From assembly GCA_003225055.1 (NCBI GenBank), contig QIAU01000144.1, positions 62,001 through 126,000 of the forward strand: a stretch of 64,000 nucleotides of DNA, in the 5' to 3' direction. This document shows, piece by piece, positions 47,564-48,877 of the stretch. Each line of letters opens with the position of its first letter. Position 1 is the stretch's first letter. The DNA is from Acidobacteriota bacterium (GTDB taxonomy: Bacteria > Acidobacteriota > Terriglobia > Terriglobales > Acidobacteriaceae). Position numbers and translations under genes: made by a program. The notes under the pieces are model-generated. The model was not told where the DNA came from. It made no database searches and saw nothing but the letters and a program-made list of their open reading frames with translations.

Positions 47564-47663
47564 CTGATTGTTGTCGGGTACAATCCATCCTTCTTATGAA
47601 TTGCCCGTCTCGCTCGCCGACAACTACACTATATCTATATCGCGGTACACGACAGGAGACTTC

Positions 47664-48152
47664 ATGCCCTTGAAAGTTGGCGACATGGCGCCTGATTTCG
47701 AACTTCCCGCCGTGGAAGGGGAACGCCCGTTGGTAGTTCGTATGCGCGAGTACCGCGGCAAGCAGAACGTCGTACTTGCCTTCCATCCTCTCGACTGGAC
47801 GCCCACCTGAGCGGCGCAGGTGCCAGCGCTCAGCTCCGCCCGGGAGAAGTTCGCTGCGCTCAATGCCCAGGTTCTGGACATCAGTGCTGATTCCACCGTC
47901 AGCCACGTGGCCTGGCAGAAGAAAGAACTCGGCACCGTCAACATCCCAATGTGTTCCGATTTCTTTCCCCACGCCGACGTGACCAAGCAATTTGAGATTC
48001 TGCGGGAAGGCCCGCCCGTGCCGGGAATTTGCGAGCGTGCCGTGTTCATTGTCGACAGGAACGGCAGAATTACGTTCGCAAGAGTCTATCCCCTCGACCA
48101 GGTGCCGAACGTCGATGAACTGTTGAACGAGGTCAAGAAAGCAGAGGCGTAA
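47664..48152 (+). CDS. Peroxiredoxin with in-frame UGA at the peroxidatic position (probable selenoprotein)
   Basis: From ATG 47664 (AGGAG before it) the frame reads MPLKVGDMAPDFELPAVEGE and on to AFHPLDWTPT, then TGA at 47808-47810 (residue 49), then AAQVPALSSAREKFAALNAQ in the same frame to 48152, 162 residues in all. DWTPT-x is exactly the site of the peroxidatic cysteine in AhpC/TSA-type peroxiredoxins, which reduce peroxides. Residues after it (LDISADSTVSHVAWQKKELG, IPMCSDFFPHADVTKQF, ERAVFIVDRNGRITFARVYPLDQVPNVDELL) are well conserved for the family. No sign of decay is visible. Selenocysteine is the most economical reading; a nonsense mutation of TGC to TGA is the alternative. Confidence 0.85.
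47808..47832 (+). promoter_or_regulatory. Hairpin starting at the in-frame UGA (candidate SECIS, weak)
   Basis: TGAGCG (47808-47813) pairs perfectly with CGCTCA (47827-47832); the loop contains GCAGGTGCC. A second possible stem, CAGCG (47824-47828) with CGCTG (47849-47853), lies a little further on. The GU in the loop is only about nine bases from UGA, closer than in the known bacterial SECIS, so this is suggestive only. Confidence 0.35.
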
Positions 48153-48240: not shown

Positions 48241-48708
48241 CTAAGCCGTACGCCTGTGCCGCCGTCCTTTAGGCGACTCGATTTGGGTAACCCCACCTTC
48301 TTTTGAATCTTTTGAATGATTCCCTTTGCCGACCTGCTTGGAATGATCTTTTTTGGTGACCCTTGCGGGTTCCACGCGTTTGGTGACCTCTGCGGGTTCC
48401 ACGCGTTTGATGACCTCTGCGGGTTCCACGCGTTTGATGACCTCCGCGGGTTCCACGCGCTCCACAATGACCTCCTCTTCAGTCGGAACTTTTGAATCGA
48501 AGAGTTGTCCCATGTACTTGTCCTTGCACCTGGTTGAGCAAAAATGGACAGCCAGGGGCAGGACGGCACGGTCTCGCTCCCAGTCGGCCAGAATCGTCGC
48601 TTCCCGCCGAACAGCTGTGTAGCCGACGGTCTCTGCCGCGATGCCCAGAATCCAGGCCTCCTGCGGTCCTTTCAGACGCGAACACCAGTCACACGAAAAC
48701 CGGATCAT
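48241..48708 (-). CDS. Zinc-finger-like protein with nine-residue tandem repeats
   Basis: A 155-residue protein of unknown function. Cys6, Cys9, Cys57 and Cys61 (SCDWC and FCSTRC) can bind a metal as a split zinc ribbon. From residue 84 four copies of RVEPAEVIK (the last two with T for I, the fourth with R for E) follow, then a Lys/His-rich tail with GKGNHSKDSKEGG. GGAGG six bases before the ATG at 48708 makes the start certain. The repeats are 27 bases each and nearly identical in DNA, so copy number may vary between strains. I do not recognise a named family. Confidence 0.75.
   Translation of the reverse strand: MIRFSCDWCSRLKGPQEAWILGIAAETVGYTAVRREATILADWERDRAVLPLAVHFCSTRCKDKYMGQLFDSKVPTEEEVIVERVEPAEVIKRVEPAEVIKRVEPAEVTKRVEPARVTKKDHSKQVGKGNHSKDSKEGGVTQIESPKGRRHRRTA
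48352..48459. repeat. 27-bp tandem repeat, four copies, coding
   Basis: Near-identical 27-bp units (ggttccacgcgtttgatgac at the core of each), in frame inside the zinc-finger-like gene. The copies differ at a few positions, showing recent expansion. Confidence 0.85.
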
Positions 48709-48877
48709 GGTTACCTCCCCGACTAGTATCGCCAACCAAACAATTGGTTTCCATCGGGTGAAGGCTGTACCAATGTTCGGCTGGGTTACATTACATCGCA
48801 AGGATTCGTTAGATCGGAAAGAGCGGAACGTTCGCGCGAGGCGTCTTGCTAAGCGAGGGCGATTCTGAACGGCCTTA

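Follow-up and report, generated by a model that had tools for sequence, protein, structure and literature searches.

The gene at positions 47664 to 48152 of the window, by which we mean the entire 64,000-nt stretch of acidobacterial DNA analysed here, is predicted with high confidence to encode a peroxiredoxin that carries selenocysteine (Sec) as its peroxidatic residue. This reading, made from sequence data, draws on an open frame that runs through a TGA codon, on the alternation of TGA and cysteine codons at the aligned position of related genes, on the Sec machinery genes of the same genome, on a family-level folding signal downstream of the TGA, and on the co-occurrence of TGA-containing forms with SelA. 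An initial annotation of this DNA had proposed a probable selenoprotein at this locus, an interpretation that gains support from the machinery, the alternation, the co-occurrence and the fold signal alike.

The gene and its product

The main elements of the gene are as follows:

47654 to 47658 (+), AGGAG, likely ribosome-binding site, read directly from the sequence, 5 nt upstream of the ATG
47664 to 48152 (+), predicted Sec-peroxiredoxin gene, with Sec at residue 49 of 162, identified through PF00578, AlphaFold2 and PDB matches
47808 to 47810 (+), TGA codon 49, proposed selenocysteine codon in the context PLDWTPTU (PxxxTxxU), with Cys at the aligned site in 7 of 49 loci

The frame runs from the ATG at 47664 to the TAA at 48150-48152 and gives 162 amino acids if the TGA is read as a residue; codon 49 is its sole in-frame TGA and aligns to the peroxidatic position. 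Translation bore out the earlier description of a single frame of 162 codons with TGA only at codon 49, and the good ribosome site described there is present as the AGGAG before the start codon. When read with the standard code, the gene falls into two separate ORFs, the first of which ends at the TGA, and because this code ends the frame there, such a gene is easily split or missed in annotation. The AhpC-TSA family PF00578 matched residues 5-138, spanning the TGA (E 7.8e-30, 103.8 bits, cut-off 26), and at E 0.001 PF00578 and PF08534 were the only Pfam families found in the gene product. This match across the TGA, together with the Cys residues of the aligned loci, upholds the earlier placement of the TGA at the peroxidatic position of an AhpC/TSA peroxiredoxin. 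The context FHPLDWTPT-U-AAQVP corresponds to the PxxxTxxU pattern of Sec peroxiredoxins given in PMC13188914. The AlphaFold2 model obtained from 39 aligned rows had a mean pLDDT of 97, the top PDB matches of the gene product were peroxiredoxins, and in 39 hand-chosen rows C/U49 and R125 were invariant, with P42 and T46 almost so.

Minus-strand neighbours with Pfam matches are a PEP-mutase-like and a FlK-thioesterase-like gene upstream and a class-V aminotransferase downstream. Between the gene and the aminotransferase lies an ORF (48241-48801, minus strand) that contains short VEPAEVIKR-type tandem repeats and gave no match in a Pfam search.

It is established that the peroxidatic residue of peroxiredoxins reduces hydroperoxides, as residue 49 would do here. 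In the proposed mechanism, the UGA at codon 49 would be decoded by SelB and tRNA-Sec(UCA), presumably directed by a SECIS hairpin just downstream in the mRNA (47819-47860). The selenol may then attack the hydroperoxide, yielding a selenenic acid that would be reduced back by a cellular thiol. Besides position 49, the best-shared Cys column is position 97, which holds Cys in 18 of 49 rows; since no Cys column goes beyond this share, a single-active-residue cycle, in which an external thiol would reduce the selenenic acid, appears likelier from the alignment.

Codon 49 among relatives and the selenocysteine machinery

Relatives were drawn from the best 80 of 274 matches of one search and from 30 matches of another that were fetched as loci; keeping for each locus its top match, provided that this reached 100 bits, and including the own gene gave a set of 49 loci with 49 different rows. 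The aligned codon was TGA in 42 of them, TGC in 5 and TGT in 2 (TGA in 41 of 48 without the own gene), so that the alternation of U and C among homologues, which had been put forward as a check, was indeed found. Twenty-three of the loci have record titles, 22 of them naming Acidobacteriota and one, a Cys row, Pseudodesulfovibrio. The frame is uninterrupted in the Cys loci. Amino acid identity to four TGA relatives was 60-71% before the TGA and 58-69% after it, in agreement with the earlier statement that both parts are preserved, and at least half of the differences to these relatives lay at third codon positions. Not part of the 42/7 count are nine second copies that score at least 100 bits, were fetched separately and are absent from the trees, the fold tests and the Cys-column count; they carry 1 TGA, 1 Cys and 7 Ser at codon 49, and with them the 58 loci comprise 43 TGA, 8 Cys and 7 Ser. 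The seven weaker paralogues in which Ser replaces the peroxidatic residue, e.g. in NWEPVSGK (L136, L146, L147, L148, L149, L150 and L151, one of them in the own genome), are 39-45% identical to the window protein and perhaps represent a non-peroxidatic branch of the family.

The assembly comprises 7.41 Mb in 301 contigs and is 98.7% complete, with the window belonging to contig C23. Absence of selA, selB or selC had been named as grounds for abandoning the selenoprotein reading; all three are present above curated cut-offs, as is selD. SelA lies on C23 like the gene itself (528.4 bits with two pieces joined, cut-off 268), SelB reached 355.6 bits (cut-off 242) and SelD 347.8 bits (cut-off 125) in the own genome, and a tRNA-Sec with anticodon UCA was identified by profile search and ARAGORN (69.4 bits, above the curated cut-off). 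The SelD gene (L135:478-1572, minus strand) likewise has a TGA within its frame (KAAGUASK) and is a predicted selenoprotein. In 14 well-known control genomes, matches above cut-off were obtained for tRNA-Sec in 5, SelB in 2, SelA in 1 and SelD in 2, and a second own-genome match above the tRNA-Sec cut-off is a tRNA-Ser according to ARAGORN. The ARAGORN call therefore matters for the tRNA-Sec, as the model exceeds its cut-off in these 5 controls and on the genome's own tRNA-Ser.

Among the matches listed, 22 of 61 genomes had a copy with TGA that scored at least 98 bits, while SelA was found at E 1e-30 or better in 48 (47 above cut-off); all 22 fall among these 48 (hypergeometric 0.0012, kinship not corrected for), and no TGA match from the 13 SelA-less genomes was among the matches listed. 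SelB was above cut-off in 21 of the 22 and below it in G030.

An unusual tRNA that inserts plain cysteine, or some other standard amino acid, at UGA has to be weighed here, as Cys is the alternative residue at codon 49 and UGA-as-Cys tRNAs are known from a few bacteria. We regard this as very improbable: in the eight tRNA-bearing loci examined with ARAGORN, tRNA-Sec alone has a UCA anticodon and the single tRNA-Cys has GCA, SelA, SelB and SelD are present, the TGA forms occur only with SelA among the matches listed for the 61 genomes, and an RNA fold signal, described below, accompanies the TGA.

The own genome has 28 PF00578 matches. In six of them the frame has a TGA at the active-site position; three are of the TxxU and three of the UxxC type. 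In addition to the window gene, these are:

L140, C23:29580, TPGU (TxxU type)
L134, C195:52576, TGGU (TxxU type)
L141, C232:7579, YWUPYC (UxxC)
L142, C91:15484, TWUKNC (UxxC)
L143, C135:582, YWUPSC (UxxC), with a second TGA, looks damaged

Across the 61 genomes, PF00578 matches with TGA numbered at least 50 by hand count, and for every listed one the genome also has a SelA match, which in G048 lies below the cut-off. None of the 29 PF00578 matches listed for SelA-negative genomes had a TGA. The window gene points to selenium-dependent peroxide defence in Acidobacteriota.

On a tree of the 49 rows, made with the codon-49 column left out, 6 Sec/Cys changes are needed, about as many as with shuffled labels (6.7). 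The number rises to 7 with an added outgroup of 12 weaker, hand-chosen Cys matches that do not lie on one side of a branch, in a tree with long branches. Cys rows are found within Sec groups, namely L117 with L113 (97/88) and L024 with L124 beside L025 (100/91), which suggests that Sec-to-Cys changes occurred, the direction being read from the sequence tree. For Prx, the table in PMC1794560 (2006) scores 5 Cys-to-Sec and no Sec-to-Cys events, whereas the acidobacterial trees here suggest such changes. When the phylum was sampled evenly with 149 genomes, a family match at E 1e-24 or better was found in 17, 8 of which have a match with a TGA at any place in it (hand count). Because the family occurs in only 17 of these 149 genomes, and with TGA in 8, we give no more than roughly even odds to a scenario in which, in the sampled acidobacterial lineages, Sec is the older state and was lost to Cys several times, with Ser as a side branch and with peroxiredoxin-heavy selenoprotein sets. 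Having close Sec, Cys and Ser relatives, the family would be a test bed for the direction and the cost of such exchanges.

RNA folding downstream of the UGA

We compared the folding of the 54 nt after codon 49 with that of 400 synonymous recodings per gene, and three stretches elsewhere in the TGA genes, each set against 100 recodings, served as control stretches. The native fold was better than the recoding mean (z below 0) in 41 of 42 TGA genes, with a mean z of -1.59 and 32 of the 42 below -1, while the 7 Cys genes had a mean z of -0.20 and the control stretches -0.20, -0.30 and +0.05. Folding of the bases after the TGA, which had been recommended earlier, thus gave a signal at the family level. 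For the last hairpin loop, a start 23-32 nt downstream of the UGA was seen in 41 of the 42 TGA genes, against a mean of 22.1 genes (sd 2.9) and never more than 30 in 200 recoded sets; 4 of the 7 Cys genes also have the loop in this range. In one Cys relative (L107:1495-1980, minus strand), the RNA after the TGC still folds well (z -1.66) and is possibly a relic SECIS.

In the window, the structures considered are as follows:

47819 to 47860 (+), proposed SECIS hairpin of the bacterial type, lying within the coding sequence, put forward from the predicted fold, four published constraints (weak) and the family-level signal
47838 to 47842 (+), apical loop GCCCG of the proposed SECIS, starting 27 nt after the UGA
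47808 to 47832 (+), hairpin TGAGCG/CGCTCA of the initial annotation, found in the sequence, probably not the SECIS

Pairing probabilities in the 47819-47860 hairpin were at least 0.94 for the apical and middle stems and 0.38-0.88 for the lower stem in three contexts. The SECIS model in PMC13188914 has an apical loop of 3-9 nt, an upper stem of 4-16 bp, a G within the first two loop bases, a distance of 16-37 nt from the UGA and an MFE of at most -7.5; the window hairpin agrees with it in its loop GCCCG, its 4-bp apical stem, its distance of 27 nt and its energy of -19.6 kcal/mol. Loop size, G, spacing and MFE jointly fit in 18 of the 42 genes with TGA and also in 2 of the 7 with Cys, which makes this a weak test, and the window hairpin taken alone is unremarkable (z -0.75 against synonymous recodings, +0.39 against dinucleotide shuffles). 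RNAalifold, run on the ungapped 42-row set, returned no long conserved hairpin, just a 5-pair stem around the UGA. According to averaged pair probabilities, one subgroup pairs at about positions 16-50 and the other at about 24-46; because the pairing registers differ between subgroups, RNAalifold misses a long hairpin, and synonymous-recoding controls were therefore used.

The 47808-47832 stem was also considered as the SECIS. Its sequence TGAGCG/CGCTCA exists as had been described, but among the 42 TGA genes it pairs completely in the window's own alone, where its ensemble pairing probability is 0.00-0.03, and it is thus neither conserved nor predicted to form. It is probably not the SECIS, and the predicted 47819-47860 hairpin would be the likelier one.

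These results also bear on whether an ordinary Cys peroxiredoxin has been broken by a nonsense change from TGC to TGA or by a miscalled base, the alternative that was raised at the outset. TGC and TGA are one base apart and the assembly is split into 301 contigs, but we hold such an accident to be extremely improbable, as TGA is kept across dozens of diverged genes, standing at the same codon in 41 of the other 48 loci and occurring on either side of a well-supported tree split. Moreover, conservation is alike before and after the TGA, folding after it is better than in recodings in nearly every TGA gene, and TGA is seen only beside SelA, with the 13 SelA-less genomes contributing no TGA match to those listed. 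Hardly credible, too, is termination at the TGA with the downstream part made separately from GTG 47820 (110 aa), for although an ORF from this GTG to 48152 exists, neither half would contain a complete peroxiredoxin active site, and in the Cys loci the frame runs on without a break.

Comparison with known peroxiredoxins

As a predicted selenoprotein, the window gene joins a catalogued family, Sec peroxiredoxin (Prx, TxxU, PF00578), listed in PMC1794560, PMC9312934 and PMC13188914; like the bacterial Sec-Prx (TxxU), it combines PF00578, the PxxxTxxU pattern, a peroxidatic Sec, predicted here, and genomic Sec machinery. The string 'acidobacteri' has 0 occurrences in the main texts of the reviews PMC13188914 and PMC9312934, and by titles and abstract starts none of the literature searched, mostly without subscription papers, had acidobacterial Sec-peroxiredoxins as its topic. 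PMC12013277 lists three known selenoproteins for a single acidobacterium, Occallatibacter riparius.

The window protein is related over residues 3-158 to the PrxU equivalog (NCBIfam NF040737), but it scores 71.7 bits where the cut-off is 270 and so falls outside this equivalog. We take PrxU of NF040737 to be the Eubacterium acidaminophilum Sec-peroxiredoxin that is cited in PMC9312934. AhpE of Mycobacterium tuberculosis (PDB 5c04, 4x0x) resembles the window protein in fold and size, with a TM-score of 0.87-0.88 by query and 31% identity. AhpE is a Cys enzyme with a single-Cys mechanism, whereas the window protein is predicted to contain Sec.

Typical 2-Cys Prx (plant 5zte, animal Prx1-4) were also the top sequence and fold matches of the window protein. 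However, typical 2-Cys Prx/AhpC possess a C-terminal domain with a resolving Cys, whereas the window chain ends at residue 162 without a conserved resolving Cys, and 1-cysPrx_C is not among its Pfam families at E 0.001; by C-terminal domain and resolving Cys, the protein is placed outside this class. One subgroup of Bcp/PrxQ typically has its resolving Cys five positions beyond the peroxidatic one, and the corresponding residue 54 of the window protein is Pro. The best matches mix 2-Cys Prx and AhpE, and the class is given no finer than 'peroxiredoxin'. To the known Sec-peroxiredoxins, the window gene adds a little-described acidobacterial set.
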